IMG/VR virus record: IMGVR_UViG_3300042923_000281
Span: 62,001-126,000 of that record
Source of the DNA: a virus
DNA: 64,000 nucleotides
Direction: 5' to 3' (one strand)
Shown: positions 5,084-56,985 of the stretch, piece after piece
How the letters are laid out: the number at the start of each line of letters is the position of its first letter
Position numbering within the stretch: position 1 is the stretch's first letter
Notes under the pieces: model-generated
Databases searched by the model: none
The model's input: the letters and a program-made list of their open reading frames with translations, nothing else
Told to the model about the DNA's origin: nothing
Program-made: the position numbers and the translations under genes

Positions 5084-8000
5084 TTACACCTTCGGTGGTG
5101 GATTGTCAGGCAGGTTGTCCAAGATAGAGCCCTTGTTAGGGAGCTTCAACGCTTTGACAGCCGCATCAGCCTTTCTCTGGTTCTTGTCCTTCTCCCTGTC
5201 CTTCTCTTTCTCCTCCTCAGACTTCTCCTCTTCCTCTTCAACAACAGGAGGCTCAGGATCAGCATCAGGCTCGACTGGATCAGTAGGCTCTTCTACCACA
5301 GGGGCATCAGGGTCCACAGGTTCATCTTCCACCACAGGAGGTTCATCGCCTACTGGAGCTTCAGGGTCTTCCGGATCTACAGGCTCAACCGGTTCTGCGT
5401 CAGGATCAACGGGATCGGTTGGTTCTTCGATCGGATCAGTCGGAGCACCTTCCTCTTCGATAGGTGCCTCAGGATCAACCGGCTCTACTGGGTCCGCATC
5501 AAGATCGATAGGGTCAGTAGGTTCTTCTTCCAGCGGTGCATCTGGCGCCTCTGGATCTACCGGGTCGACAGGGTCGGTCGGTTCTTCCACAGGCTCGACT
5601 GGAGCAGCAGGTTCATCAGGAGCCAGCTCAGGGTTCTCTGCATCCACCTCAGCAGCCGCTACATCAGCATCTGCCAAGTCACCCACTTCCAGACCATTGT
5701 TACCCAACTCCGTGTCAGGTACCGGATCGACGTCGTTGTCTTGAGGAATCAAATCGCTATCCGCGTTCTCATCCACGACAGGGTCAGCCGGCTCTTCAGT
5801 TACAGGTGCATCCGCATCAGGAATCGGTGCGTCTACATCAGGGGCTGGAGCGTCCGGATCTACTGGCGCCTCAGGGTCGACTGGCTCATCGCCCGCTGGG
5901 AGTTCCAGATCAGGATCAGCCGGTGCTTCTGGATCAACCGGATCAGTAGGCGCTACGTCCAAGTCAGGATCAACTGGGTCCGTAGGTTCCGCATCAGGGT
6001 CTGCCAATGCATCTAGCTCGCCTTCTGGAGCAGGTTCACCGTCTGCCGGAGCATCGAGTGCTGCCATTGGGTCTGCATCAGCCGGTGCAGCATCAGCACC
6101 TTCAGCAGGCGCTTCAGCAATGGCCGAGTCATCGCCCAGTTCAGCCGCAGGGTCAGCATTTGGATCAGCATCAAGGTCCGCTGCCGCAGGATCTGCGTCT
6201 GGGTCCAAGCTTGGGTCTGCTGGGTCCGCTGCTGGATCAGCGTTAGGGTCGGCATCGAAGTCCAACTCATCACCACCACTCAAGGATGGATCAGCATCGG
6301 GATCGGCCAATGGATCAGCGTTCGGATCAGTGGCGTCCATACCACCGTCTAAGCCATCACCGCCCTCAGGACCTGCGGTTGCAGCGTTCTTCGCGTCTTC
6401 CAGTTCCGTCTTGCCAGCCGTGAGTTTCTCCAACACCTTCGCACGACGTTTAGCGGCCTTGACCACTTTCTTGACGTACTCGGAGATGGAGTTGTTCAGG
6501 CCATCAAGATGCTCTGCACTGGCCTCGAGCAGATCGAAGACTGGAGAGCCCTCTTCTTCCGAGACAGTGTTGAACACATCGAGTTCTGGCATGACGTTGT
6601 TGTGACGCAGCCAGCGACGTTGGAACTCGGCCTTGACAACAGCCTTGACGTTTGGAATCAGCTCTTCCATGCCGATAGACGAATCTGCTGCGAACATCTC
6701 TTCGTTCATGTAGGCGTCGATGACCTTGTCCAGCGCTTCGCTGTACGAGTCGAACGATTCCATGGACTTCTTGATGTCGCCCACTTCTGGTGCAGGCAGG
6801 CCCACGCAGAGTGCTTCGATGAACTCGTACAGGAATGCATCGACTTGCAGCATGTCGTCCTGTAGGTTCGGATCGCCCTTGATGTGGTCTGGCAGGTATT
6901 GCTTGTTGTCGCTGATCAGCTGACGCATCTCGGTCAGGAAGATCCCCGAGTTCAATACGTAACGGCGCACGAAGTCCGTCAGGAATGGCTCGAACTTCTC
7001 CTGGCTCTGAATCACACGCTTGAGGAGCATCAGGTTGTTCTGTACGACCGTGGTCGCAAAGTCCGACTGGTTGATACCCTCCATGACCTCCGGCGAGAGA
7101 CCGAACATCTGGATGTGACGACGGCGCATGGTTTCTTCAAACTCAGCATCGACTGGCTTGTTCTGCCCTTCACGCTGGTTGACGTTGAAGGTGGTTTCAG
7201 GGTACCGGCTGTTACCGGAGACCACCACGTTCACACCATGGTTCTGAATCTGATCCGCCAAACCCAATGGGTGAGTCGAACCAATGATCTTGCTGAAGCC
7301 TTGACTGTTGACCTTCGCGTGTTCGGAGAGCATGAACTCCACCGTCGACACTGGATCTTCGTCTTCAGGGTCCAGACCGATCTCAACCGTCTTACCGCCG
7401 ACTGCGTTGTTCAGGGTGGCCAAGGTGTTAGCCAACATGATCGAAGCACGGATCGACCCGAGGATCTTGCCGTCTTCCAGCACGGACTTACCTACGCCGA
7501 ATTCGTTGTAGTCAAAGGCGATGTACGTCATCATCTCTGGCGGAACGAACAACATGACGGTCTTCTGACCTTTCATGTGGCGAGAGAACATAATGCGGTT
7601 GATGTTCTCAGTCTTGCCCAGCTCGTAGTTACCCGAGAGAGCACCGCTGCGCAGACGTGCCAACAGATCACGTTCTACGGTGTCGGAGTAGACCTTGCCC
7701 AACTCATCCACGATCTCATTCTGAAGACCGCCCGAACCCTCGAACCCACGACGCGCTTGCTGAATGATCTGCGAGGCGTAGCTGTCGACATTGTTCATCT
7801 GCGAACGGATGTCATCGTAGTACGACGATTGATCCGCAACGTTGATCGGGTTGCCGTCGATGTCGAGCATCACGTAGTAACCCACGTGCTCCGACGGGTT
7901 GCCTGGTACGTGAATCGGGATCACCGACTCAGAAGGCAAGTGCATGACCAGCGGGTGACCGTAGGTCTCAGTGCCGGTCTGTGCATGGGTCAGCAATGGC

Positions 8001-9040
8001 TGTACAGGGACGTGCTGGTAGCGACGCTTCTGGTACATGCTGCGCTCAACGGCTGCCAAGTTACGGGCTGCGTCTTTATCACCGGCCTGAGCACGGCTTT
8101 CCAACGACGCACGCTGGTGCAACTTGCCGCCATAGATGCGACGCACTGCCAGCTTACGCTTGGCGTCCACGACCATCGGGCGCTTGAGGATGGTGAGGTT
8201 GTCAGACACAGTGATCGTCGAACCTTTACCTTCGACCAACTTAACAGCCTTGGCACTGGCCTCAGTCAGTTTGGTACGGGCTTCTTTGTTCTCGTCCACG
8301 TCAACCAGCAACTGCTCAAGGCTGACCTTCATGCCGCTGAACTGAATGTCCCCGTTGTAAGCCCCAGCACGTTGGTCATTGCCGAACGACAGGCTTTCAA
8401 ACGACACGCCAGTGTAGCTGTCCACCTTTTCCTTGGCAGCGCTGGAGTTACCCAGAATGCCCCAAGGGACATAATTGCCGTTGCCGTCAGTCTCTTCTTT
8501 CAGGTGACCGTCCAGCGTCTGCAACGCAGACTCCATCGACACTCCGCCGTAGTTATCGGAGTTGATGATACGGTCAATCGAGGATTCCGGCATAATCAGG
8601 ATTGGGTAGCTGCCGGTCTCGAACATTACATCGTTCAACATCGGATGCAGCAGCGGTCTAATCCTATAGGAATTATCGAAGAACTCCTGAACCTTCCTGA
8701 GAAGCGGCCCTGACAGGTTGCTATCCATGGATGTATCTTTGATGCTGTACAGCACCTTGGTGTCCGTCAAGTCACCAGGCGAGATCGTTGCCGAAATCAG
8801 AATCTGCCGCGCATAGTCCATGTCCGGCAAGACTTGGAACAGGTTGCGCGCATCTCGGATGTTACCGATGGTCGTATTGGCAACATGAGCCAGTACACGA
8901 CCATCGGGCAGCCGCATGTTTTTGCGTTGGTTGCCAGTTCCGTGGGGGTCGGCCTGTAGTTTGGAGATGGCTGCTTTGACCTCGTTCGGAATAGAACGGT
9001 TCGCAGCAAATCTCGTAAACCGCCGTACTTCGTCAGTCAT
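5084..9040 (-). CDS. Portal protein with a long Asp-Pro repeat tail, 1318 aa
   Basis: The first roughly 880 residues look like the very large portal of phiKZ-type phages, the dodecameric ring at the head vertex through which DNA is packaged. The call rests on size, a mixed helical body, and position next to the neck and tail genes near the capsid gene. From about residue 883 to 1272 the chain becomes an acidic low-complexity tail built from DPDA, DPNADP and DPVDP units. It ends in a highly charged E/K stretch and a basic terminus. Portals of this group are normally about 850-900 residues, so the tail is an extra of some 400 residues. The start at 9040 follows GAGG. Confidence 0.7.
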   Translation of the reverse strand: MTDEVRRFTRFAANRSIPNEVKAAISKLQADPHGTGNQRKNMRLPDGRVLAHVANTTIGNIRDARNLFQVLPDMDYARQILISATISPGDLTDTKVLYSIKDTSMDSNLSGPLLRKVQEFFDNSYRIRPLLHPMLNDVMFETGSYPILIMPESSIDRIINSDNYGGVSMESALQTLDGHLKEETDGNGNYVPWGILGNSSAAKEKVDSYTGVSFESLSFGNDQRAGAYNGDIQFSGMKVSLEQLLVDVDENKEARTKLTEASAKAVKLVEGKGSTITVSDNLTILKRPMVVDAKRKLAVRRIYGGKLHQRASLESRAQAGDKDAARNLAAVERSMYQKRRYQHVPVQPLLTHAQTGTETYGHPLVMHLPSESVIPIHVPGNPSEHVGYYVMLDIDGNPINVADQSSYYDDIRSQMNNVDSYASQIIQQARRGFEGSGGLQNEIVDELGKVYSDTVERDLLARLRSGALSGNYELGKTENINRIMFSRHMKGQKTVMLFVPPEMMTYIAFDYNEFGVGKSVLEDGKILGSIRASIMLANTLATLNNAVGGKTVEIGLDPEDEDPVSTVEFMLSEHAKVNSQGFSKIIGSTHPLGLADQIQNHGVNVVVSGNSRYPETTFNVNQREGQNKPVDAEFEETMRRRHIQMFGLSPEVMEGINQSDFATTVVQNNLMLLKRVIQSQEKFEPFLTDFVRRYVLNSGIFLTEMRQLISDNKQYLPDHIKGDPNLQDDMLQVDAFLYEFIEALCVGLPAPEVGDIKKSMESFDSYSEALDKVIDAYMNEEMFAADSSIGMEELIPNVKAVVKAEFQRRWLRHNNVMPELDVFNTVSEEEGSPVFDLLEASAEHLDGLNNSISEYVKKVVKAAKRRAKVLEKLTAGKTELEDAKNAATAGPEGGDGLDGGMDATDPNADPLADPDADPSLSGGDELDFDADPNADPAADPADPSLDPDADPAAADLDADPNADPAAELGDDSAIAEAPAEGADAAPADADPMAALDAPADGEPAPEGELDALADPDAEPTDPVDPDLDVAPTDPVDPEAPADPDLELPAGDEPVDPEAPVDPDAPAPDVDAPIPDADAPVTEEPADPVVDENADSDLIPQDNDVDPVPDTELGNNGLEVGDLADADVAAAEVDAENPELAPDEPAAPVEPVEEPTDPVDPVDPEAPDAPLEEEPTDPIDLDADPVEPVDPEAPIEEEGAPTDPIEEPTDPVDPDAEPVEPVDPEDPEAPVGDEPPVVEDEPVDPDAPVVEEPTDPVEPDADPEPPVVEEEEEKSEEEKEKDREKDKNQRKADAAVKALKLPNKGSILDNLPDNPPPKV
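5225..6390 (-). repeat. Asp-Pro low-complexity repeat in the portal tail
   Basis: Imperfect short codon repeats specify DP(A/V/N/E)D-type units, recoded with many synonymous changes, so selection appears to act on protein composition. A related repeat occurs in the putative inner-body gene at 40700-40990. Confidence 0.9.
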
Positions 9041-40356: not shown

Positions 40357-41805
40357 TTAGATGTCCATGAGTGCTTGAAGAGCGCGGGTGTTGGTGTCCC
40401 CGTCACGAATGCAGGCTGCAACCCAGGTGTCGTAATGGCGAACCAGCACGTCACCGGCACGGTCAACGACCATGTTGGTGTTCAGGCAGAACTCGTGATT
40501 GATTTCACCTTCGAGTGCAGCTTTACCTTCAGCGGTCAGCAGACCGTTGGAGTCCAGCCACGACATCAGTTGACGCTGAATGCCAACAACGGCATCGACG
40601 TCCTGAACACGAGTGGTGATGTTTTCGATGACGATTGGATCAGCAACCGATTCAGTCGAGACCTTCTTCTTCGGGTTGCCTTCGGCGTCCAGTTCTTCTT
40701 CAGCTTCCGGATCGATTGGATCGGTCGGTTCAGCATCAGGATCTACTGGATCGGCATCGGCGTTGGCCGCAGCGATTTCAGCTTCTGGGTCGATCGGGTC
40801 AGTTGGCTCTTCGATTGGATCGACAGGGTCAACTGGATCTACTGGATCAGCGCCCGGGTCAACGGGGTCGACCGGATCTACTGGGTCCACAGGTGCATCG
40901 GGATCGACAGGGTCGACCGGCGCATCAGGGTCCAGTGGGTCAGTGCTGCCAGCGGCATCCGGATCAACCGGTGCGTCTGGATCAACAACGTCGCCTTCAC
41001 CGTTGTTCTGAGTCGACGGGGTGTCTTTCTCGATGGTGCTGGCATTGACGCCGTCATCAAGTTTCGGCCCCGATGGATTCTCACCGCGGTGCTGTTCGAT
41101 CAGGTCGCCCATGCGGTCTTCACCGTCAGTGCCAATGGCAGCAGCTTCGGAGCGAGCAGCTTCTGCGCTCTCTTCAGCACTTTCCTTGGCCGTGGCAACC
41201 AGCGCTTCGATACGGTCAACCGCGTCGGACATGTCGCCCAGGACTTGGGTTTGTTCCAGGTCTTCCATGGAGACACCCAGAGCAACCAGACCGTCGCCCA
41301 TGCGGCGAGCCACGTTCAGCACCAGAGGACGGGCTGCTTCGATGGTCATGCCTTCCATGGAGATCACTGCTTTCACAGTGTCGATGTTTTCCTTGAACAG
41401 GCCCAGGGCTTCTGCCTTGAAGTTCAGGGATTCCAGCGAGGCCGTGGTTTCGGTGTCGCGGGTGGTGAACGGCACAGGCTCTTCGTTATCAGCCTTGGCT
41501 TGCAGAGCTTGCTCGATGGTCTCGACTTCAGTCAGACGAGGAGTAAGCACGTCTTGCATGATCAGCTCGACTTGAGCTTGTGGCTCGCTCACGCCATCGA
41601 CGACCTGCAAGTCGGCCTGATGATCAGCTTGTTCAAGCACGTTTTCAGCCAGCACCATGAAGGACGAAGCGGAATCGCTTTCCAACGATGGGGTCAGCAG
41701 AAGTGCCTGACCAACCGACATCAGAGCTTCGAGACTGGTGCGGTAGGCTTGAGTCTCGTGAAGCATTTGAGCCGCGTTTGGTCGTGCGGTGGTATTGTGC
41801 GTCAT
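40357..41805 (-). CDS. Putative inner-body (internal head) protein precursor, 482 aa
   Basis: The N-terminal 260 residues hold S-x-E motifs (for example VSMEDL, ISMEGM, ASLESL, PSLESD), the cleavage pattern of the phiKZ-type head protease. Another (STESV) lies after the repeat. Residues about 272-368 are a DPDAPVDP-type repeat like the portal tail. phiKZ-like heads enclose a protein cylinder made of processed proteins of this kind, so an inner-body role is plausible. It is divergent from the SNF2-type helicase gene. No enzyme motif is visible. Confidence 0.6.
   Translation of the reverse strand: MTHNTTARPNAAQMLHETQAYRTSLEALMSVGQALLLTPSLESDSASSFMVLAENVLEQADHQADLQVVDGVSEPQAQVELIMQDVLTPRLTEVETIEQALQAKADNEEPVPFTTRDTETTASLESLNFKAEALGLFKENIDTVKAVISMEGMTIEAARPLVLNVARRMGDGLVALGVSMEDLEQTQVLGDMSDAVDRIEALVATAKESAEESAEAARSEAAAIGTDGEDRMGDLIEQHRGENPSGPKLDDGVNASTIEKDTPSTQNNGEGDVVDPDAPVDPDAAGSTDPLDPDAPVDPVDPDAPVDPVDPVDPVDPGADPVDPVDPVDPIEEPTDPIDPEAEIAAANADADPVDPDAEPTDPIDPEAEEELDAEGNPKKKVSTESVADPIVIENITTRVQDVDAVVGIQRQLMSWLDSNGLLTAEGKAALEGEINHEFCLNTNMVVDRAGDVLVRHYDTWVAACIRDGDTNTRALQALMDI
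40700..40990 (-). repeat. Asp-Pro low-complexity repeat in the inner-body gene
   Basis: Codons for DPVDP, DPDAP and related units are repeated with synonymous variation. Composition and register match the portal tail repeat at 5225-6390. Confidence 0.88.
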
Positions 41806-43975: not shown

Positions 43976-45097
43976 ATGAAACAAGGTATTTTGAGCCAGT
44001 ACATGATGTCTGACGCACGTCAGGCTGGTCGTGGTCTACTGGCGTCGCTGGAGTCCATTGAAGAGATGGAACTCGGGGAAGAGAAGAAAGCAGATGCAAT
44101 CGAAGAGGCAAGTTCGTTGGCATTGCGCATCGGTCGGGACTTTCCTGAAGACAGTGACATGCATCAGAGCATGTTCAAGGTTCTTGAGAACATGGGCGCT
44201 ACCGAAGGTGCCAATGTTTCCAATGAAAGTCTATTGGGGTTGGCCACAAAGCTGTCTGGGTTCTGGCGAAAGCCTAAACCAGACTCTAAACAAATCTCTG
44301 ATGAAGAGAAGACGGATTGGAGCAAACGCCAACAAGCTATCCTCCAGTTCATCAAGGACATGGAGAAGACGTACCTGAACACGGTTTGGTTGGGTAAGCA
44401 GAAGTACGTTCAAGGTACTGTCCCTGCCAAGGACTTCTCAGGAGCGTTCCAGCTTGACGGGAAGCCGGTCACAGACCCACTGGCAAACATCGAGCAGCAC
44501 AAGAAGAACACTGGTGCGTTCATCAAAGCATGGCACGGCGTCTTGGCCAACCTGAACACCCAAGTGCAGGCCATCCATCAGCGTACAGTCAAAGCCACTG
44601 CCGGTGCGGCACTTGATGACGAAGCAGCGATCGACATCGTCCGCAAAGCGGTTGATGAACTCAATACATTACCCGACCCCACTGCCAAGTTCCCTTCGTT
44701 CTCCGGCACTGCATTGTCCAACATGGTCCCCGTCATCAATACCCGCTTCAGTGTGCCCGTGGTGAATGTCGAAGCAAAGATGCCGATGTCCCCAAGTGAC
44801 ACGCTGCCTGCGCTGGATAAAGATGGGGTGCTCAAAGTAGCCAAGTTGGTTGTCGAGATGATGAAGAACCCTGACTTCTGGCCACACATGGAATGGATCA
44901 GGTGGCTGGACTTCAAGGACGGCAGTAAGTTCAGTGACTGGATCTACGACGCAGACAACAGTGTCTACATGGATTACTACCATCGCTTCTATTGGCAGGG
45001 TGCCAACGATGCATGGTCGGACGACATCTTCGCATTGAACAGTCACTACCGCGTTATCATAGGCTTGATCAAGTGGATGGATCGCTCGATCAAGTAA
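43976..45097 (+). CDS. Putative internal head protein, 373 aa
   Basis: The start follows AAGGAT. The first 85 residues include ASLESI and VSNESL, S-x-E sites as in the capsid precursor, ahead of a helical, basic body rich in aromatic residues near the C-terminus. This layout fits a virion protein trimmed by the head protease. It lies 42 bases after the helicase gene. No enzyme motif is visible. Confidence 0.58.
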   Translation: MKQGILSQYMMSDARQAGRGLLASLESIEEMELGEEKKADAIEEASSLALRIGRDFPEDSDMHQSMFKVLENMGATEGANVSNESLLGLATKLSGFWRKPKPDSKQISDEEKTDWSKRQQAILQFIKDMEKTYLNTVWLGKQKYVQGTVPAKDFSGAFQLDGKPVTDPLANIEQHKKNTGAFIKAWHGVLANLNTQVQAIHQRTVKATAGAALDDEAAIDIVRKAVDELNTLPDPTAKFPSFSGTALSNMVPVINTRFSVPVVNVEAKMPMSPSDTLPALDKDGVLKVAKLVVEMMKNPDFWPHMEWIRWLDFKDGSKFSDWIYDADNSVYMDYYHRFYWQGANDAWSDDIFALNSHYRVIIGLIKWMDRSIK

Positions 45098-47569: not shown

Positions 47570-47959
47570 TTACTCGGCGCAGGTGTCGAGGAAGTTGATA
47601 ACCAGAGCGGCTACCAGTGCAGCGGGGGTGACGCCCATGCGGGCCGCTTCTTTGATCAGGACTTCTTTCTGCGCTTTGGTGATCTTGCCACCGAGCGATT
47701 CAGAACGAGTCAGGCCGCCTTTGGCGAAGCCTTCGAAGATCTTGGCCAGACGTGCTGGGATCTTGTAGGGCTTTTTCGCTGGGGCTTTCTTGGCAGCAGG
47801 CTTGGCCTGTGCAGCAGGAGGAACGCTGATCGAGGCGACCTTGGTCTTTTTGATACCGTCAGCAGGGGCTACCTTGGCTTTCGGTTTGGCAGCCAGTTTA
47901 GCTGCGGGCTTACCGGCTGGTTTCTTTGCGACTGGTTTGGTTTCGTCATGGACGGCCAT
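47570..47959 (-). CDS. Lys/Ala/Pro-rich basic protein, 129 aa
   Basis: The first 75 residues are KPAxKPxAK-type repeats, like the tails of histone H1 and bacterial nucleoid proteins. The C-terminal 50 residues form a compact helical part (ITKAQKEVLIKEAARMGVTP). DNA binding is likely by charge. It may compact phage DNA or interfere with host nucleoid, but this is inference. The start at 47959 follows AAGGAAC. Confidence 0.65.
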   Translation of the reverse strand: MAVHDETKPVAKKPAGKPAAKLAAKPKAKVAPADGIKKTKVASISVPPAAQAKPAAKKAPAKKPYKIPARLAKIFEGFAKGGLTRSESLGGKITKAQKEVLIKEAARMGVTPAALVAALVINFLDTCAE

Positions 47960-48559: not shown

Positions 48560-48995
48560 AATGGTACTTCCCATCCTTAAAGCTCTCCAAGCGATGTTTG
48601 AGATCCATGTCCATCACTTCTGACATTGCCTTCGTCAGACGGTAAATAGAGACCATGGCATTGTTCTTGTGTACCACTGCACGGCAATTGACCAACTTGC
48701 CAGTTCGCCATTCAGGCTTGAAGAATTCCATGGAGGCGATGTACGCAGCCTCAGTGAAGGCGTACCCAGTCGACCCCTCACAGACGATGTGCCAGAAGTC
48801 ATACTTGTCATCGTCCTTAAAGGTCACATCCCATGTAGAAGCATGCAGACTCAGTGACCCGCTGTAGACCCCGAACGCATCACGTGCATCAAGGTCAAAG
48901 AAATCTCCACGAACGGCCTCGCTATCGTATAGGTAGTCATCCAACTCCCGGGAGTCAGGATGCAGGCCTTCACGGAATACCAACAACTTTTTCAT
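48495..48995 (-). CDS. Unknown protein, 166 aa
   Basis: The chain begins MKKLLVFREG, followed by an acidic FDLDARDAFGVYSG. This loosely resembles the starts of the 45153 and 52526 gene products. No known domain. It heads the minus-strand run from 48995 to 45153 and is divergent from the plus-strand gene at 49059. Confidence 0.65.
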   Translation of the reverse strand: MKKLLVFREGLHPDSRELDDYLYDSEAVRGDFFDLDARDAFGVYSGSLSLHASTWDVTFKDDDKYDFWHIVCEGSTGYAFTEAAYIASMEFFKPEWRTGKLVNCRAVVHKNNAMVSIYRLTKAMSEVMDMDLKHRLESFKDGKYHYETPADALGPLLIAAEKEEAS

Positions 48996-49058
48996 GGTGT
49001 AAGGCCTTAGCTAGTTCTACACCATCTCAGCACTTTTTCTTTATTAACGGTGAACGTC

Positions 49059-49526
49059 ATGTCCCATCTGTACCACGGTTCTGGCTACAAACAACCGGAG
49101 CTTAAACCCGGCATCATGCACTCGGGTGAATTGCAGCGCTGGGACAAGACCGAATCCAACGAGTTCCTCTACGCCACCACGTTGATGGAAGAAGCCATTG
49201 CCCAAGGCTTAGCGTCGGTCATTGAGAAGCACTGGAACCTATCTCGTTACCAGTCCTCAGGCGACACCATTACGATCATCGTTGATGGGCCTCTCCCGTC
49301 GCTCAAGGAGCTTCAAGCCCTGACGGTGTATCTGTACAAGATCCACTGGGAGAAGTCCGTGTGGGTCCTCGTAGACAACCTGCACAATGGAATGTCCAAC
49401 GAGTACAAGACCAAGCAGGTCATCGGCGGGAAGATGATCGAAAGCTGTGAGCCTGTGGACCTGAGCAATTGGCTCAAGCACAAGAAGGTCGAGATCAAAG
49501 GCAAGACCGCAGCGATGCGTTGGTGA
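49059..49526 (+). CDS. Possible ADP-ribosyltransferase-like protein, 155 aa
   Basis: It starts LYHGSGYKQPELKPG, followed by TESNEFLYATTLMEEAI and a late NEYKTKQVI. The pattern YHGS, then FLYAT, then an acidic site resembles small ADP-ribosyltransferase folds (HxT/HGS and YxT elements). The catalytic glutamate cannot be assigned with confidence. It is the only plus-strand gene in an 18-kb minus-strand region and is bounded by a convergent terminator. If real, it could modify a host protein. An RNA 2'-phosphotransferase-like fold is another option. Confidence 0.35.
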   Translation: MSHLYHGSGYKQPELKPGIMHSGELQRWDKTESNEFLYATTLMEEAIAQGLASVIEKHWNLSRYQSSGDTITIIVDGPLPSLKELQALTVYLYKIHWEKSVWVLVDNLHNGMSNEYKTKQVIGGKMIESCEPVDLSNWLKHKKVEIKGKTAAMRW

Positions 49527-49576
49527 CAAAGAAAAAAAAAGAGGCTAGAGACAGGGGACCTTCGGGTCCCCTGTCT
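49526..49576. terminator. Bidirectional terminator at a convergent junction
   Basis: AGACAGGGGACC/GGTCCCCTGTCT stem closed by a TTCG loop (49549-49576), with an A-tract at 49526-49543 that is the U-tract of the minus-strand gene. Confidence 0.85.
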
Positions 49577-49582
49577 ATTCCG

Positions 49583-49951
49583 TTACGACATCAGCCAGAT
49601 CGGCTTGATGTCACTGAGTGGATAGGTCTCACCGTCAACAACGATCTTGACGGGGTCCGTTGAATCGCCCGAGTAAGTGACACCTTGGATAGACCCCATC
49701 CCAGCGGGAGTCTTAACCAACATGCCAACCGACGGGTTCCACATGACGCCCTCGCCATCGAACTCCACGGTGCCGCTTTCAGGGTCTGGCGTGGCCATAC
49801 TCTTCTTGAGGCGCGCGATGATCTCGCTGTTCATGGAACGATGGTTCTCTTTCGCCACCTCCTGAATCTGTTCACGCATGCCATCAGGCAGACGTACAAC
49901 GAACTTATCAGCAGTACGGGAAGAGTAGATTGCTTGTTTCAAAGGACGCAT
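49583..49951 (-). CDS. Arc-type ribbon-helix-helix regulator, 122 aa
   Basis: Residues 15-50 follow the Arc repressor pattern: a basic strand FVVRLPDG, a helix [12 protein letters not shown], then [14 protein letters not shown]. The C-terminal 70 residues form a separate beta-rich domain with no known match. Arc-type proteins bind DNA as dimers. It could repress phage early genes. Its own promoter is not obvious. A convergent terminator follows the gene. Confidence 0.72.
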
Positions 49952-50021
49952 GGTAAAGCCTCTTGCAAGTGGGACCCTAGAGTCCCGGGTTATGGTGGTG
50001 AAGTGCCATTATGGCGATGTA

Positions 50022-50792
50022 TCAACGGCCGGTCAAGAAGTTCTTCGCTTGTTCCTGAGTAAGGTTCACCAAACCCTTACCGTGGAAACGGCTAGCCGAA
50101 GTACTGATCCCGGTGAACTCGTCCCCGCCCAAGTGCAGCACGGCAGAGACATTCGACTTGGTCACGTGAAGCACACCAGCAACGCCATCAACGGAGCATT
50201 TGTGGTAGCCACGTGCCAACTCGGTATTGCGGGTCTCGAAGTCAACCGAAGACAACTCGATGACGTCAGGACGACGCAATTTGGCCACGAACGAACTCCA
50301 GAAGACTGGAGATTGATCGGGTTGTACTGGGTTCAACACCGCCCGAGGACGGGAGATGCTGACCACCTTGTCACCATTTCTATCCTTGACTTGTTCAAGG
50401 ATAGCTTCCGAGCTGGAAGCCATCATTTCTTCGCCAAACTGACGGATGCTCGGAATGGTCCCAGGCGCCTGTTCAAAGTCAAGACTGACGTTGCTCGTAG
50501 CAGTGCTGGGCGAACGGTAGGTCATGAAGTCGAATGGGCCGTCAGTGTCCTTTTTATCAGCCATGTCGGCTCCTTCAGCTTTTTCAATGACGGTTTCGGT
50601 GATGGCCACTTCCACTTTCTGGGTAGTGGTTTGTTGTACCCGAGCACGCAGGATGGCTTTACGCTCTTCCATTTGCTCAGGGGTGAGTTTGTCATCGCCT
50701 TTACGAGCCTTGACAGTCTTCCAGCCGAGACCGCCAACGATAGCAGCAGCAACAGCACCCACACCAACGATTACGGCAACTTGCTTTTCCAT
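50022..50792 (-). CDS. Membrane-anchored protein of unknown function, 256 aa
   Basis: The N-terminus has MEKQVAV, then a Gly/Ala/Val membrane helix to residue 23, followed by basic residues and a soluble domain with TKSNVSAVLHLGG. It resembles the 324-881 protein in layout and in the last residues. ATG at 50792 follows AGGAG. Not a known enzyme. Confidence 0.68.
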   Translation of the reverse strand: MEKQVAVIVGVGAVAAAIVGGLGWKTVKARKGDDKLTPEQMEERKAILRARVQQTTTQKVEVAITETVIEKAEGADMADKKDTDGPFDFMTYRSPSTATSNVSLDFEQAPGTIPSIRQFGEEMMASSSEAILEQVKDRNGDKVVSISRPRAVLNPVQPDQSPVFWSSFVAKLRRPDVIELSSVDFETRNTELARGYHKCSVDGVAGVLHVTKSNVSAVLHLGGDEFTGISTSASRFHGKGLVNLTQEQAKNFLTGR

Positions 50793-50822
50793 GGTGAAAC
50801 TCCTTTCAGTTCCGAGGTAAGT

Positions 50823-51140
50823 TTATTGTACTTGACGCAGGCTAGTGGCTTCGATCATCTTGGCAGTCGCCTCGTCCATGATCTTCTCAATTGCCATGCG
50901 GTCTTTCATGCCAACGCTCTGAAGGATCAGATCGTCAGCTTCTTGCTCCAGCTCCAAGGCACGGGAGAGGTTGCTGGCACGCAGGGCAGCTTTCTCGATA
51001 CGCTTGGCGTTCTTCAAGGCTTCGTATTTACGCTTGCCTTGCCAGCTCCGATAGACTCGCTTGATGGCAGTCCAGATGGACACCTTCTCTTGAGTGGTCG
51101 AAACACGGGATTCTTCCAGTTGACGGATGAGTGCGAACAT
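50823..51140 (-). CDS. Coiled-coil protein, 105 aa
   Basis: The ATG at 51140 follows GGAGATCAAC. Charged helical composition (Arg, Lys, Glu, Ala) throughout suggests a coiled coil. It is the first gene after the promoter-like element at 51178. Function unknown. Confidence 0.62.
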   Translation of the reverse strand: MFALIRQLEESRVSTTQEKVSIWTAIKRVYRSWQGKRKYEALKNAKRIEKAALRASNLSRALELEQEADDLILQSVGMKDRMAIEKIMDEATAKMIEATSLRQVQ

Positions 51141-51177
51141 GTTGATCTCCATTGATCAGGGTTAGGGTTATGTCAGC

Positions 51178-51218
51178 GTAATCATGTATTGTTGAAAAGA
51201 ATTCGAATCGAATCGGTA
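51178..51218 (-). promoter_or_regulatory. Recurrent phage promoter-like element
   Basis: The minus strand reads CGATTCGAATTC, spacer, CAACAATACATGATTAC. It shares 36 consecutive identical bases with the element at 46715-46753, and a terminator follows it on the plus-strand side in both. Confidence 0.7.
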
Positions 51219-51221
51219 TAA

Positions 51222-51247
51222 GGAGCCAGGGCAATTGCCCTGGCTCC
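51222..51247 (-). terminator. Palindromic terminator
   Basis: GGAGCCAGGGCAATTGCCCTGGCTCC is a perfect palindrome written here by position: two 12-base arms with an AT centre. It closes the 51251-51553 gene. Confidence 0.8.
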
Positions 51248-51250
51248 ATG

Positions 51251-51553
51251 TCAGCATTTGGTGCAGGCCATCTTGTAGAATTCGTTGTTGATCTCGATGA
51301 GTTGATCAACCGATGTAGCGGTGTGCAATGCATCAATGAAACACCCTGCCGCCCCTTGGATGGTCTTCATCAGGTGCTTGGCTGCTTCGAACTCATCACC
51401 TGACAACTTGTCGAAGGAGGTCCGCTTGAGCAACTGCAACATGATGTTCATGTGACTGGCAGTAATGCGGGCAGCCATCCAGCGTTCAGGGATGTCTTTG
51501 TGACCCGGTGAAGTGCTATTGGCAAAGGAAGTAGAAACGTGGACGAGTGACAT
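51251..51553 (-). CDS. Small protein, 100 aa
   Basis: The ATG at 51553 follows GAGGTGTC. Helical, with a Cys-rich end (MACTKC) and a conserved-looking GAAGCFIDAL. No known family. The product may be a small early protein. Confidence 0.6.
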   Translation of the reverse strand: MSLVHVSTSFANSTSPGHKDIPERWMAARITASHMNIMLQLLKRTSFDKLSGDEFEAAKHLMKTIQGAAGCFIDALHTATSVDQLIEINNEFYKMACTKC

Positions 51554-51589
51554 GAGACACCTCAAATTCAAGACTATAGGATTGGTATC

Positions 51590-51690
51590 TCGGCAAAACA
51601 AAAAAAGAAAGAAGTCTTGGGACACTGTTCGTCATCATTCGCCTCAGGGAGATCAGCCCCTTACTACGTTTCCGAGTCGACAGTGTCCCG
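51590..51690 (-). ncRNA. Putative small structured RNA
   Basis: GGGACACTGT (51619-51628) and ACAGTGTCCC (51680-51689) form a 10-bp perfect stem around a 51-base loop. Minus-strand reading continues into a CTTTCTTTTTTTGTTTTGCCG stretch (51591-51614), a U-rich end like that at 39901. It may be a terminated small RNA, or only a terminator for the 51878 gene. Region 51554-51877 has no other coding frame worth noting; an 11-bp stem AATCAATAGTC/GACTATTGATT lies at 51836-51879. Confidence 0.45.
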
Positions 51691-51877
51691 TAACCTTGTG
51701 TAGCGCTTGTCTTCCTCATCCCCCGAGCCCTTTCACCAAGTGCGTCATCGCGTAGTGCGAGGCCTTGCGTTAATCAGTCGTAGGTTTGGATCGGACTGGA
51801 GGCCATTGCCATCCAATTCAACCGAACTCAATCGGAATCAATAGTCATCAAATGTGTTCACTGACACGGACTATTGA

Positions 51878-52189
51878 TTAGCTCTCGTGCACCTTAGGCA
51901 CGCGCTGGATAGTCCGCTCAGACACCGCCGTGCGATAGCCCTCTGCTGGTTTCACGACGCACACTTGCGAAGCTCGTGCCATGAAGAGTACACCTTCTAA
52001 GCGAGCCATTGCTGGCATCGCCCTTGGGAGAAGACCTTTCCCCAAGTCCTGATGGTGCATCTTATCCGACGACGCAATTGCGCTCTTCTCTTGCTTAGCG
52101 ACTGCACGATTGTGCTCTTCCGCTTGGGCAGACAAGGTGACAGCTAGGGCCAACGCCACGAGAGTGGAGAAGCCGCGGGTTCTGATCAG
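51878..52189 (-). CDS. Small secreted protein, about 93-103 aa
   Basis: The frame encodes a signal peptide (IRTRGFSTLVALALAVTL, then SAQA before the cut) followed by a basic periplasmic part. GTG at 52159 begins inside the hydrophobic core, so the true start is upstream. AAGGAG lies at 52193-52198, three bases before CTG at 52189 and six before ATC at 52186; no ATG is in frame. The product would be exported. No domain is recognised. Confidence 0.4.
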   Translation of the reverse strand: MIRTRGFSTLVALALAVTLSAQAEEHNRAVAKQEKSAIASSDKMHHQDLGKGLLPRAMPAMARLEGVLFMARASQVCVVKPAEGYRTAVSERTIQRVPKVHES

Positions 52190-52237
52190 TAGCTCCTTAG
52201 AGGCTTAATTGAACGCTCATGAGTTATCAATGGTCTC

Positions 52238-52301
52238 CAGTGCTACGGTGCACCTACCGTTCCACGCGCCTTATGCGTGAGGTAGGGCACCGAAGTCACT
52301 G
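52238..52301. other. Multi-stem hairpin overlapping a small frame
   Basis: Nested perfect pairs CAGTG/CACTG, GGTGC/GCACC, CCTACC/GGTAGG and CACGC/GCGTG form a long hairpin of about 64 bases. It overlaps the end of the 52243-52437 frame. It looks like an RNA control element or attenuator. Confidence 0.55.
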
Positions 52302-52437
52302 AAACGGATGTAACGGTCCCGGTAATGCGCGGCGGGTCATCGGTCTCATTCGGCGGCGTCACGAGTGACACGGCCTTTAGAAGACGTTGTACTGATGTCC
52401 AGATGCGGCGCACGGAACCAAAGAACGATCCGAACAA
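52243..52437 (-). CDS. Doubtful small protein, about 64 aa
   Basis: AAGGAT lies seven bases before TTG at 52437 and one base before GTG at 52443. The N-terminus is an amphipathic basic helix (FFGSVRRIWTSVQRLLKAV) and the rest is polar. It could be real and co-transcribed with the secreted protein gene, but the strong RNA hairpin inside its 3' end argues caution. Confidence 0.3.
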   Translation of the reverse strand: MFGSFFGSVRRIWTSVQRLLKAVSLVTPPNETDDPPRITGTVTSVSVTSVPYLTHKARGTVGAP

Positions 52438-52525
52438 TGGCACGATCCTTAATCGATGTCACAGTGCTACTACATACAACTCGACCGAAACGTATTTATT
52501 TACCTGTGACCCGTATGTCCTTGAT

Positions 52526-53119
52526 TTAACGGGGTAATCTTGGCCGTATGTTGTTACGACGACGGTGGCCAGAGGGCACGTTATCTTCCGCTGGTTGTTC
52601 TGGCTCTGGGTAGTCTTTATTGAGGCGCGCTACAATGTCCTCAACCGACATCCAGACGATGGGGTAATTGGCCCCAACTGCCATCCCGTTAGTATCCTGC
52701 TGGAATTTCTCTTCGTCCTTCCAAGCAGCCAGCGCACCCAACAACGAATCGCGTGTACTGATCTCAGAACACATGACGTAGGTCGATTGGCCCGATGGCA
52801 GACCGTGGAAGTCTAACGTCCAGCGCTTTTCATCAGGGCTGGTGTTGTTCTTGAAGATGTCAACCTGCGCGATAGCCCCTTGTTTGGAGATCATGTAAGC
52901 CGACATGTTCATCGAGACACGAGGGTGACTGGCCATCTTCAAGCGACCACTCACCACGTCAGCGATGTTCGGCCCAGTGCCGCTCAGTGGGTAGATGAAA
53001 CCTTCATTGCTGAAGTACGTGCCGATGTCGGCTTCTAGGGCTTTGAAGTGTACGCCTTCGTTGGCCTCATGGACCTCAGGGAACCCGACCATGCCACGGC
53101 GGTAGATTAGGAAGTTCAC
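52526..53119 (-). CDS. Unknown protein, 197 aa
   Basis: The start overlaps the stop of the HslV-like gene (ATGA), so the two are translationally coupled. It carries FKALEADIGTYFS near residue 26, shared in part with the 45153 gene product. The C-terminus is basic (GHRRRNNIRPRLPR). No known domain. Possible partner of the Ntn hydrolase. Confidence 0.65.
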   Translation of the reverse strand: MNFLIYRRGMVGFPEVHEANEGVHFKALEADIGTYFSNEGFIYPLSGTGPNIADVVSGRLKMASHPRVSMNMSAYMISKQGAIAQVDIFKNNTSPDEKRWTLDFHGLPSGQSTYVMCSEISTRDSLLGALAAWKDEEKFQQDTNGMAVGANYPIVWMSVEDIVARLNKDYPEPEQPAEDNVPSGHRRRNNIRPRLPR

Positions 53120-53637
53120 AGAGTAGTCCCCTTGATAACAAATGGCTTCAATCGGCTAGCGTAAATCACATCGACCTTCGAGCCGGTCAACAGATCCAAA
53201 CGCTCAACGACTGGCATCGCCGCTTTAATAGTCATGCCGCACTTCAACATAGCAGCGAGTAGGTTACCACCCGTCCCACAGCCGTGTGTATGGCCCGCTA
53301 AGCGACGAAAGCGAGAACCGTAGGACATGATACCGAATTGCTGGTCACGGGTCATGAGGGTGCCGTGAGTGAAGCAATCGATCTTGTCTTCCAAGATGTC
53401 TTCCAGAGGGACGACGTCTCGTTTGTCAATGACTAGGCGTTCAAGAACAACGCGGAGTTTGTGTTCCAGTTCATCACGAATGGATTCATCGATGGCGGAG
53501 CCAGTGGCACCGTAAGCAAATTGCTTATCGCGGCTGATGAAGACTTTGGGACCGTCTTCGAATGCTGTAGGGATTACCAAGGCCACCTGTTTACGGTCGC
53601 CGATCAGTTTCCCATCATGGTACACAATAGCAGTCAT
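53116..53637 (-). CDS. HslV/proteasome-like Ntn hydrolase, 173 aa
   Basis: T2, exposed after removal of Met1, would be the N-terminal nucleophile. In proteasome numbering D13 (GD) and K30 (DGPKVF) are spaced like the catalytic D17 and K33. GCGTGGNLLAAML fits the GSGG turn before the first core helix, and a final VDVIYASRL strand follows. Known HslV and proteasome subunits are self-compartmentalised peptidases. No ATPase partner is adjacent, but the AAA+ gene lies 400 bases away. Length matches HslV. The start at 53637 lacks a strong ribosome site. Confidence 0.6.
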   Translation of the reverse strand: MTAIVYHDGKLIGDRKQVALVIPTAFEDGPKVFISRDKQFAYGATGSAIDESIRDELEHKLRVVLERLVIDKRDVVPLEDILEDKIDCFTHGTLMTRDQQFGIMSYGSRFRRLAGHTHGCGTGGNLLAAMLKCGMTIKAAMPVVERLDLLTGSKVDVIYASRLKPFVIKGTTL

Positions 53638-53654
53638 ACGAACTCCAAAAATAA

Positions 53655-53678
53655 AGAGAGGACCCGAAGGTCCTCTCT
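53655..53678 (-). terminator. Rho-independent terminator
   Basis: The 10-bp stem AGAGAGGACC/GGTCCTCTCT with a CGAA loop is followed on the minus strand by TTTATTTTTGG. It lies between the 107-aa gene and the HslV-like gene. Confidence 0.8.
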
Positions 53679-53686
53679 ATGCTGGC

Positions 53687-54010
53687 TTAGTAGCCGCCGC
53701 GCGATTCACGCAGTTCAGACAGCGAACCGCAAGACTTGCGAGGGCTGGACTTTGGCAGTTCGCCCTGTGGGGCTACGCCGGTTTCGGAGACCAGGGTCAC
53801 GACGCCAGTTTCGACGTCGATGGCGATGGTGGAGCCTGCCTTGATGGTCTTGTCGTAGTCTTCGACTTCCACGGACATCTGGATAGTCTTGTCCACTTGG
53901 AACACCAGCTCTTTCTTGTCAGCCTTGGCTACGTAGGCTTCGAAGGGTTTCTTGTCCTTGGCCAGGAATGCCAGGATCGCTTGGTGCTTCTCGATTTCTT
54001 TGATTTTCAT
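53687..54010 (-). CDS. Small beta-rich protein, 107 aa
   Basis: Residues 1-22 form a helix; the rest alternates short strands (ELVFQVDKTIQMSVEV, GSTIAIDVETGVVTLV), a beta-barrel pattern. It lies 39 bases downstream of the AAA+ gene and may be its partner. Not a known family. Confidence 0.63.
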   Translation of the reverse strand: MKIKEIEKHQAILAFLAKDKKPFEAYVAKADKKELVFQVDKTIQMSVEVEDYDKTIKAGSTIAIDVETGVVTLVSETGVAPQGELPKSSPRKSCGSLSELRESRGGY

Positions 54011-54049
54011 GCAGACTCCTCAGTCTTGGGTTGGTGTAGCAGGGATGGA

Positions 54050-55315
54050 TTAGTTAGCCTGGCCAGCAGCCGGATGGTGCTTGCTGGACAGCATGGCTTC
54101 GCGGTTGGCGAATTCAGTGGCGTTTTCACCACCCGCAACGGGACCCTCGCTCAGGTAGCGACCGATCCCAGCAGACTTCTTTTCGCCGTAGGTCTCCGTC
54201 GGGGCGAGGTTGATGGTTGGGGTGTTGTACTCGAACCCGTAACTCAACGTGATGTTGAACTTGCGATGACCTTGGTAGCTTACGACACGAGTGCCTTCGG
54301 ATTCTTCCAGGGCTTCGATGTGCAACTGAGCTTCTTTCAACATCGGGTCCGGGTTGGAGTCGATTGACAGGAAGCTGGTGTTGCCAGACTTGCGGGTCTC
54401 GGTGATGCGGACGGTCAGGTCGCTGCGGCTGTGGCGGTGCGAGTAGACCTGATAGCCGAAGCCTTCAAACTCTTCAGGAGTGTCCACCACTTCCACACGA
54501 GAGACGAACCACTGCATGCGCGGGAAATCCGGTACGTTGAGGATCTCGCACATGTCGGCCACTTCGATGGCATCTTTGCAGCCCGCCGACTCACGGATAA
54601 CGCAGAGCAGGGAGTCGAAGTTCAGCTTGCCGCTTTCACGCTTCACGTACGCTTCGAACGCCTTGTGCAGATGTTCAGAGACCTGCATCTTGGCCATGAT
54701 GTCATGGAGGGTTTCCAGGTCAATCATGGTGCCGAAGCCGATGTTGTAACGGAAACGCTGAGGACGGTTGACCAGGTAGTCGGAGAACTCTTCCGCCTCG
54801 TTGCCAGTGATGACGAACATTACGCCCAGGAACGACGTGTCGCTGAACAGTGGCAGCAGACGCTCACGTTCGACCTTCTCGCTGTAGGTCTTACCGAACT
54901 CGTCGAAGTACACCATGCAAGGGCCGATGGCCTTGATGATGATGCTCAACTCTTCAGCACCCATGGCCTCAGTGACCATGATGACCGGCAGGTCTTGCGC
55001 GATCATCCAGTTACCCAGTTCTTCTGCCAGCAGGCTCTTACCCGAACCCTTCATGCCGTGCAGCAGGACGCCGTTGCTCTTACCGAAGCGGTCATAGCTG
55101 GCGGTGATCTGCTTAACGCGGGCATTGTGTTTACCAAAGCGCAGCTGAGGCAGTACGAAGGTCGGGCGGTCCTTGGTCATGATGATGCCGATACGACCGA
55201 TGGACGCCTTGTACACCATGGCCGGCACGTGGTCGATGAGGTTGGACTCATCGTTCATGCGAATGACCATGTGGTTGTCGAAGTTGTTGATGCTGATAGA
55301 AGCTTTGCGATCCAT
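54050..55315 (-). CDS. AAA+ ATPase, 421 aa
   Basis: Walker A GMKGSGKS lies at 87-94, Walker B MVYFDEF at 134-140, sensor 1 as FVITGNEAEE, and arginines at 184 and 187 follow in NRPQRFRY, fitting a finger position. The N-terminal 60 and C-terminal 180 residues are special to this protein. AAA+ proteins remodel or unfold partners. With an HslV-like gene and a 260-aa gene as neighbours it could be an unfoldase or a DNA-replication clamp-type ATPase; the sequence does not decide. Confidence 0.75.
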   Translation of the reverse strand: MDRKASISINNFDNHMVIRMNDESNLIDHVPAMVYKASIGRIGIIMTKDRPTFVLPQLRFGKHNARVKQITASYDRFGKSNGVLLHGMKGSGKSLLAEELGNWMIAQDLPVIMVTEAMGAEELSIIIKAIGPCMVYFDEFGKTYSEKVERERLLPLFSDTSFLGVMFVITGNEAEEFSDYLVNRPQRFRYNIGFGTMIDLETLHDIMAKMQVSEHLHKAFEAYVKRESGKLNFDSLLCVIRESAGCKDAIEVADMCEILNVPDFPRMQWFVSRVEVVDTPEEFEGFGYQVYSHRHSRSDLTVRITETRKSGNTSFLSIDSNPDPMLKEAQLHIEALEESEGTRVVSYQGHRKFNITLSYGFEYNTPTINLAPTETYGEKKSAGIGRYLSEGPVAGGENATEFANREAMLSSKHHPAAGQAN

Positions 55316-55367
55316 GAGGTAAATCCTTGGTGAATTTCGAAATGAATGTACGAAGGTAAAGCGCCGA

Positions 55368-56150
55368 TTACTCGGCGTTTACGCGGGCGGTCTCTGCGAT
55401 GGATTCGGCAATCAAGAACGCGAGGTACACGCCCTTGAGTTGCAGCCAGCCGTGGTAGACAGAACCGCCGTGTTCAGTGAAGCCTGCTGCGTCAACGATG
55501 TAACCGATGAACAGCATGGCATTGCCCAGCAGGCCATTGTCGTACGTGGTCGAGTCCAGGGCTGCTTTACGGGCCTCTTCAGTGACGATGATCGGGTGGT
55601 TGCGCTGAGTGTCGAGGAAACGACCCAGTGCCACAACAGCACCAGCGTTATCGCCACAACCACACGCACCACCACCGTCCTTCGGCATAACGAGGTTCAG
55701 GATCACGGAGTCAATGTCACCGTGCCAGCATTCGTCGTCCACTGGAGTCCAGTTCTTGCCATCGGCGTCATCCAGCGTTCCGCCATCAATGCCCACGGTC
55801 GACCAGTCCAACATCAGACCGCAGAAGTGCGCCACAGTCGGGTTGACGTAGAAGCGGTTGCACTTGTCGCGAGTGACGACTTCCAGTTCAGAGTCGATGT
55901 AGCCGAAGGCGTCTTGCGCTTTCTTGGTGTACAGGACTTCGAACTCGGTGAACGCTGCATCAGCCGCATCGAACTTCTCTTTGTTCAGGTACGCCAGCTT
56001 CCAGTCGCCGGGCATATCGAGGAACGTGAAGTTGTCAGTGAGCTGAGGGATGGTCTCGTCGGTCTTGTGCATCACGACGAACGCAGTCAACAGTTTGCCT
56101 GGAGTGGCAGTTACGTCAGAAGAAGCAGACATGATAGCTTTGTTATCCAT
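55368..56150 (-). CDS. Unknown protein, 260 aa
   Basis: A Gly/Cys-rich GGGACGCGDNAG segment (near residue 170) may bind a metal or form a turn. The rest is mixed with hydrophobic helices near the C-terminus. It lies directly upstream of the AAA+ gene. Start at 56150 follows AGGAACC. No family recognised. Confidence 0.65.
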   Translation of the reverse strand: MDNKAIMSASSDVTATPGKLLTAFVVMHKTDETIPQLTDNFTFLDMPGDWKLAYLNKEKFDAADAAFTEFEVLYTKKAQDAFGYIDSELEVVTRDKCNRFYVNPTVAHFCGLMLDWSTVGIDGGTLDDADGKNWTPVDDECWHGDIDSVILNLVMPKDGGGACGCGDNAGAVVALGRFLDTQRNHPIIVTEEARKAALDSTTYDNGLLGNAMLFIGYIVDAAGFTEHGGSVYHGWLQLKGVYLAFLIAESIAETARVNAE

Positions 56151-56177
56151 GGTGAGGTTCCTGGGTGTATGTGCGGG

Positions 56178-56603
56178 TTAAAGGGTAGAGTTGTGCAAGT
56201 CAACCAAGATGTCGGTCAACTTCTCGAACGCATCGGCCAGAATGCTCATCGGGACTTCGTCGTGTCCAAAGATGGTCAAGCTGCCCTTTTCAGGTTCGGC
56301 GTAGATTGGCACTACCAAGATGAACCGGTTAAGGCCATCCGGGCAAGCGTCGTAGTTCTGAATCACAGCCAGTACCACATGACCGAGTTTCACGTACATC
56401 GTGCCAGACGCGCCCATCATCTCCGTTTCGTAACGGATTACAGGCTTGTGTACCGAGATGTTCCATTGACGGAACAGCTCAATAAAAGAGTGGCTGGTCA
56501 GGACACTGTGGTCCGTTTCCTTGCCAGTGGTGATGGTGAGTTGACCACGGAGTTCGCGTTCAATCAACTGGGTGAATTGCTTTGCCAGCTTCTGGAGTTT
56601 CAT
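56178..56603 (-). CDS. Unknown protein, 141 aa
   Basis: The ATG at 56603 follows GGGGACACT. Alpha/beta composition. No known motif. It begins the unit downstream of the promoter-like variant at 56630. Confidence 0.63.
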   Translation of the reverse strand: MKLQKLAKQFTQLIERELRGQLTITTGKETDHSVLTSHSFIELFRQWNISVHKPVIRYETEMMGASGTMYVKLGHVVLAVIQNYDACPDGLNRFILVVPIYAEPEKGSLTIFGHDEVPMSILADAFEKLTDILVDLHNSTL

Positions 56604-56629
56604 AGTGTCCCCTATGTAGGTGTATACAC

Positions 56630-56664
56630 GTGAATGATGTAGGGTCACAAACTTTTTGAATCGG
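56630..56664 (-). promoter_or_regulatory. Variant promoter-like element
   Basis: The minus strand reads CCGATTCAAAAAGTT, then GACCCTACATCATTCAC. The CTACATnATnnAC core is a variant of the CAATACAT element, and a terminator adjoins it in the same way. Confidence 0.45.
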
Positions 56665-56703
56665 CATAAAGCGGTGAGGGGTTGGCCCCCTCACCACCTA
56701 TGT
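56665..56703 (-). terminator. Terminator with GCATA/TATG clamp
   Basis: GGTGAGGGG/CCCCTCACC stem, flanked by GCATAAA and CTATG. It closes the 83-aa gene. Confidence 0.75.
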
Positions 56704-56707
56704 TGCT

Positions 56708-56959
56708 TTACTCGGCCGCTGCTTCAGCAACCGGCTCGAACGACCAGCTTTCAGCCAATTGCTTGGCCAGATCGCGGGTCACGCTGTTCGGCGCACCGTC
56801 AACGGTTTCGATGGCAGTGTCGACGATGGTCAACGTGCCTTGGATCGCGAAGTTGATGGCTTCAGCCTTGTCTTCGATGGCAATCGCATCGCGGCGAATG
56901 TCGTTCAGGCAGGTCACAGCGTCTTTGCGAGCTTGTTCAGCAGATACAGTCGTGGACAT
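56708..56959 (-). CDS. Small helical protein, 83 aa
   Basis: The ATG at 56959 follows AGGAG. Almost entirely helical, acidic and with Ala-rich ends. Co-transcribed with the Nudix-like gene 26 bases upstream. Function unknown. Confidence 0.62.
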   Translation of the reverse strand: MSTTVSAEQARKDAVTCLNDIRRDAIAIEDKAEAINFAIQGTLTIVDTAIETVDGAPNSVTRDLAKQLAESWSFEPVAEAAAE

Positions 56960-56985
56960 CAGTGTTACTCCTAATGGTGCAGCGG

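Follow-up and report, generated by a model that had tools for sequence, protein, structure and literature searches.

The 64-kb stretch of DNA analyzed here (the window, in whose numbering positions are given) is part of the 277-kb genome of a giant phage of the Pseudomonas type. Two of its genes, located ~31 kb apart, are considered in this study (Table 1). The product of 5084-9040 was identified as a phiKZ-type portal because its residues 18-963 matched phrog_3004 at 2.9e-197 and a profile built from 13 such portals matched chain M of PDB 9xpe (PHIKZ129; 12 identical chains) with E=0. By sequence, the window portal matched 9xpe_M at 4.2e-101 and was 28% identical to PHIKZ129 over residues 18-855, and matches to it were found in 271 phage records. 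In addition to the core sequence match, it shares with the PHIKZ129 family predicted protease sites within the N-terminal ~250 residues and an acidic C-terminal tail whose composition predicts disorder.

Table 1. Features of the portal gene and of the gene for the 482-aa protein.
Feature	Position	Strand	Basis
phiKZ-type portal, 1318 aa, one open frame (ortholog of PHIKZ129 / SPN3US gp81)	5084..9040	-	phrog_3004, PDB 9xpe_M
Conserved portal C-terminal end, KNQRKADAAxKxLKLP...NLPDNPxPKV, residues 1286-1318	5087..5185	-	alignment
Acidic Asp-Pro C-terminal tract of the portal, residues 882-1279	5204..6397	-	composition and shuffle tests
Conserved island in the portal tail, NGLxVGDL...AAVDAENPELA, residues 1103-1144	5609..5734	-	alignment
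Predicted portal protease sites GVSME/S (170), GVSFE/S (215) and KVSLE/Q (242)	8312..8545	-	7/7 clade portals
482-aa clade-specific protein, predicted head/inner-body protease substrate	40357..41805	-	orthologs, motif scan
Sixth motif of the 482-aa protein, VSTE/S at E385, directly after the acidic linker	40648..40662	-	S-T/N-E-S, 7/7 orthologs
Acidic Asp-Pro linker of the 482-aa protein, residues 272-372	40690..40992	-	composition, shuffle tests
Five S-[LM]-E motifs of the 482-aa protein: E26, E42, E125, E151, E181	41260..41739	-	7/7 orthologs

The acidic tract of the portal is 398 aa long with a net charge of -137, and is made up of Asp, Pro, Ala and Glu with very few Lys or Arg, from which we infer a disordered segment of low complexity. 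It contained 37 DP dipeptides and 7 DPxDP motifs, compared to 17 and 0.7 in residue shuffles, and neither count was reached in any of 2000 shuffles. These results bear out an earlier note on this DNA, in which an acidic DPxDP-type tail of about 400 residues, lying outside the portal fold, was placed at 5225-6390 (portal residues 884-1272). The conserved island within the tail is retained in the related genome 3300014063_000001, although the repeat style differs there, and the conserved last 33 residues of the portal possibly comprise a helix and a short motif. The C-terminus of a portal crown usually lies inside the head, and by analogy the tail would surround the DNA entry on the inner side of the head.

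The 482-aa protein consists of a helix-rich N-terminal half, the DP linker and a 97-aa C-terminal part. The linker contained 20 DP and 11 DPxDP, compared to 6.3 and 0.3 in residue shuffles, and the same repeat style that the earlier note had ascribed to 40700-40990 (residues 272-369) was found at that place. When the whole 277-kb genome was scanned at the DNA level for DP-G/A/V/D/E-DP, 15 of the 16 matches fell in the portal and 482-aa genes, and the 16th was a single DPVDP in an unrelated protein. Lys and Arg together number 1-4 in the acidic tracts of the two proteins. Orthologs of the 482-aa protein were found in 8 genomes. Its profile detected no homolog in phiKZ, LucasX or FLC9, the PF12699 (phiKZ_IP) profile did not match any of five 482-aa family members up to E 10, and the AlphaFold model (pLDDT 45) was too poor for a fold search. 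The protein is acidic throughout, including its C-terminal 97 aa (net -8), and therefore is not itself a shielded basic DNA-binding protein; the idea that a propeptide covers a basic mature domain was rejected for it on this ground.

The phiKZ-type prohead protease cleaves after S/A-X-E (PMC9026906), and its motif was also given as LSxE (PMC10449902) and, in SPN3US, as A-X-E (PMC5694885). The predicted sites of the window portal, the third of which occurs as KVSLEQ or KISLES in the clade, fall in the region where cleavage of the SPN3US portal gp81 occurs (at 161 and 254; PMC5694885, PMC10052503). The start of the tail showed no conserved cleavage motif, and mass spectrometry of SPN3US reported portal cuts in the N-terminal region only (PMC10052503); on these two grounds, the tail is predicted to stay on the portal. 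In the 482-aa family, the exceptions among the S-[LM]-E motifs were S to G at the first one (3300011678_000001) and Q at the X position in two. Its acidic block sits between the predicted cuts E181 and E385, and we predict that this block is cut out. Among ~300 ORFs of the related phage pPa_SNUABM_DT01 (DT01) scanned for [VAILGT]S[LMF]E, only the portal and the 482-aa ortholog had four sites (joint first), followed by an annotated phiKZ_IP internal head protein, two similar proteins and vRNAP beta. The six conserved S-x-E sites and the rank among the top two support a head or inner-body role. The 482-aa product, for which the earlier note had proposed an inner-body protein, is judged from its motifs to be very probably a head/inner-body protein. 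Evasion of a Glu-specific protease as the reason for favoring Asp was rejected, as the depletion of S/A/G-x-E was not consistent from genome to genome and a Glu-rich lineage exists. A 373-aa protein encoded beside a helicase gene (window 43976-45097, + strand; DT01 ortholog PA10_00306) also contains LASLES and NVSNES motifs and is probably a further head protein.

Portal and 482-aa orthologs were taken from six further distinct genomes, giving seven with both genes complete when the window is included. Both proteins are of the DP style in the window, IMG/VR 3300034126_000020 and 3300005289_000016, of a Gly-Asp/Thr (GD/GT) style in 3300014063_000001 and DT01, and Glu-rich in 3300014697_000001 and a near-identical second contig. 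The match is weaker in 3300011678_000001, in which the portal is Ala/Asp/Glu-rich and the linker Ala/Asp/Val-rich. The match was first noticed in five genomes, and two more were found later. With dipeptide profiles, tails matched the linkers of their own genomes with a p of 0.0006 among 5040 re-pairings, for seven related genomes that represent essentially one Gly-to-Pro switch and one Glu-rich lineage; with the DP clade collapsed, the own-genome pairing was 2nd of 120 orderings. After the divergence of the folded parts was removed, distances among tails and among linkers remained correlated (partial Mantel r 0.79, permutation p 0.01). The acidic vRNAP beta and PA10_00167 linkers from the same genomes, which served as controls, gave r of -0.18 to 0.14 against the tail or the linker. 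PA10_00167 (DT01, L040 12605-15505; orthologs L057-L062; phrog_18270) is a structural protein of the virion that contains repeats and whose Pro/Glu linker is short and acidic. Phylogenetic contrasts of tail and linker correlated at 0.96 for Pro, 0.82 for Gly and 0.91 for Pro minus Gly, the last being 0.07 and -0.51 with the control linkers. Given that the Glu-minus-Asp contrast correlates with the PA10_00167 linker too, the Glu/Asp axis is non-specific and partly genome-wide. Genome-wide composition is therefore ruled out as the source of the common Pro/Gly style, which the two control linkers do not follow, but not for Glu/Asp.

The pairing of tail and linker drawn in the earlier note is thus specific, and their style co-evolves across the seven genomes, in none of which a portal with such a tail was without a partner carrying the same style. 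Because both proteins change style together in relatives, our results suggest that the portal and the 482-aa protein act on the same partner during head building. They also provide a natural case of conservation in disordered segments, in which charge and repeat style persist despite changes in sequence and DNA. The summed net charge of the portal tract and the linker was -150 to -184 per pair in the seven genomes, and the one among them whose portal tail is short (-39) had the most charged linker (-111); both observations may be due to chance.

At the DNA level, neither the 12- to 18-mers common to both tracts of one genome nor the repeats within each tract exceeded those of synonymous-codon shuffles, with marginal exceptions in DT01. 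The codons of the portal tract and the 482-aa linker were as mixed as in synonymous shuffles, in agreement with the synonymous variation that the earlier note had seen in both. Recent gene conversion or slippage was rejected, as DNA-level similarity did not rise above the shuffles. An ancient event of this kind at the base of each lineage would make the common style a leftover of recombination, not the mark of a common partner. Low-complexity acidic codons are prone to exchange, and an old event could have lost its DNA trace since four-fold sites among the clade genomes are near saturation (47-72% identical). We nevertheless consider this explanation unlikely: no genome showed a DNA-level excess, and in three genomes of the DP or E-rich style the portal tract contained no repeated 15-mer, while synonymous shuffles gave 5-9 of them in two of the three. 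Moreover, the protein style was kept after synonymous change had erased the DNA likeness, so selection on the protein is needed.

An acidic low-complexity C-terminal tail was found in 20/20 phiKZ-type portals examined. Most tails are 70-120 aa long with net charges of -14 to -44, and those of six portals of the window's clade are 300-450 aa long with net charges of -106 to -137. Most of this clade has enlarged the acidic tail about four-fold. Acidity is conserved in all portals examined, but the tail sequence is not. phiKZ gp129 and SPN3US gp81 (PDB 9xpe) resemble the window portal in family, in the long N-terminal region with protease sites and in the acidic disordered C-terminal tail (net -26 to -29), but their tails are 80-90 aa long and have no DP repeats, while that of the window is about 430 aa. 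In the comparison with related jumbo-phage portals that the earlier note called for, acidic tails, mostly short, occurred throughout, and the window's phage is thus not alone in having one. The tail of the window portal is an enlarged form within a known portal family and, as far as searched, its coupled style change with a second head-protein candidate is undescribed. In a literature search that had most subscription papers outside its reach, we found no description of acidic tails on phiKZ-type portals and no paper on pPa_SNUABM_DT01.

Acidic segments are also found in other head proteins of these phages. When 272-457 ORFs were ranked by their most acidic low-hydrophobicity 40-mer in each of five phages, the portal C-terminus ranked 1-4; it was 2nd in phiKZ and 3rd in DT01. 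The other leaders included proteins of the inner body or ejected ones, namely the phiKZ inner-body protein gp97, gp54, gp53 and a vRNAP subunit of SPN3US, and vRNAP beta of 201phi2-1; vRNAP beta-type subunits were among the leaders in several phages. phiKZ gp97 is acidic over residues ~15-455 (net -151), followed by S-N-E/S at 468. Like the 482-aa family, gp97 and its 201phi2-1 relative have a long acidic low-complexity segment before an S-N-E/S-type site, but the acidic block of gp97 is N-terminal and longer and its C-terminal part is neutral. The 482-aa profile detected no gp97 homology in the phiKZ record, and only the arrangement of an acidic block followed by S-T/N-E/S is alike. The SPN3US E proteins gp53 and gp54 and phiKZ_IP (PF12699) similarly have an acidic segment and several protease sites, but their mature parts are more basic, while the 482-aa protein is acidic throughout. 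The propeptides of gp53 and gp54 were proven by mass spectrometry (PMC10052503), and their acidic parts lie inside them. Like gp53 and gp54, four DT01 protease-substrate candidates, two of which are annotated phiKZ_IP head proteins, have a predicted propeptide that is acidic (-15 to -22) and a remainder that is basic (+6 to +14). DNA mimicry by acidic segments fits this charge pattern of inner-body precursors.

The reading that we favor, tentatively and at somewhat less than an even chance, is that both acidic blocks are polyanionic assembly segments that hold inner-body or core proteins at the portal before DNA arrives. This assembly reading draws on the composition, the pairing, the co-variation, the lack of recent DNA copying, the conserved motifs and the acidic-propeptide/basic-mature split in several relatives, and it supposes a location, a cleavage, a partner and an order of events. 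The 482-aa protein would be a prohead core or inner-body precursor cut by the prohead protease. Before packaging, the acidic blocks would bind a head partner common to both (basic inner-body proteins or another) via many weak charge contacts, and the core would thereby form on the portal instead of on cytoplasmic nucleic acid. Proteolysis would then free the core copies, incoming DNA would replace them and the portal would retain its tail; the acidic segments would thus stand in for DNA in the DNA-free prohead and later be cut away or displaced. The need of both segments to fit one partner would keep their repeat style alike. In phiKZ, the inner body forms before DNA loading (PMC13282480). In T4, the core assembles on the portal and is then digested (PMC9958956), and its core proteins gp22, gp67 and gp68 resemble the 482-aa protein as proposed here in being core precursors cut at several Glu sites by the prohead protease, with no sequence relation shown; the T4 portal gp20 is unprocessed and has eight disordered C-terminal residues (PMC5694885, PMC4493910). 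Speaking against the assembly reading are the wholly acidic 482-aa protein and the weak style match in 3300011678_000001, and no basic partner that changes style in step with the tracts has been identified.

The main rival, which we regard as rather unlikely, is that the tail forms a DNA-repelling brush, a negative inner portal face to which DNA would not stick and clog the entrance, with the 482-aa linker being an unrelated acidic spacer. The highly negative inner surfaces of T4 and other portals, which presumably avoid binding packaged DNA (PMC4493910), and the conservation of acidity without that of sequence are in line with such a brush. It leaves unexplained, however, why a protein encoded so far away follows the Pro/Gly style of the tail when two other virion linkers do not, as well as the conserved island and C-terminal motif. 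A direct tether, with the acidic portal tail bound by the linker of the putative inner-body protein, was one proposal of the earlier note. The specific pairing and the co-variation of style would agree with it, but both stretches are strongly negative and should repel each other in the absence of bridging by a basic partner or by divalent cations, or of like-with-like condensation; we therefore consider a direct tether very unlikely. A wider form of the assembly reading combines two claims, namely that portal and core share a readable compatibility code in their repeat style, and that acidic segments on the portal, inner-body precursors and virion RNA polymerase constitute one general DNA-placeholder system in phiKZ-type heads. 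It would have style matched by selection, through a common partner or the same condensed phase, and inner-body assembly at the portal; taken jointly, these claims are doubtful, about as improbable as the brush. With the common co-varying acidic segment, two proteins are singled out together with a part of each that can be removed, and how the phiKZ-type inner body is positioned with respect to the portal and assembled ahead of DNA entry thereby becomes testable by deletion or swap of the tails in a laboratory phage.

Near the 482-aa gene lies a gene for a KPAAK-type basic low-complexity protein (window 47570-47959, - strand; DT01 MW735835.1 254254-254661) of 129-135 aa, with a net charge of +21 in DT01, a conserved C-terminal half and a resemblance to histone-H1-like tails. 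It is possibly a DNA-binding protein or a polycation partner. As the most basic low-complexity ORF, it was considered as the partner changing in step and rejected: its style is the same in both dialects, and it therefore does not covary with the acidic tracts.

In IMG/VR 3300018405_000014 (L051, 3089-4533), the helicase encoded beside the 482-aa gene has an insert right after the Walker A GSGK, which looks intein-like with an endonuclease-like part; the helicase copy of the window has no such insert. In DT01 (MW735835.1 ~48600-57600, L038), seven annotated radical SAM genes are clustered with 2OG-Fe(II) oxygenase-like neighbours.
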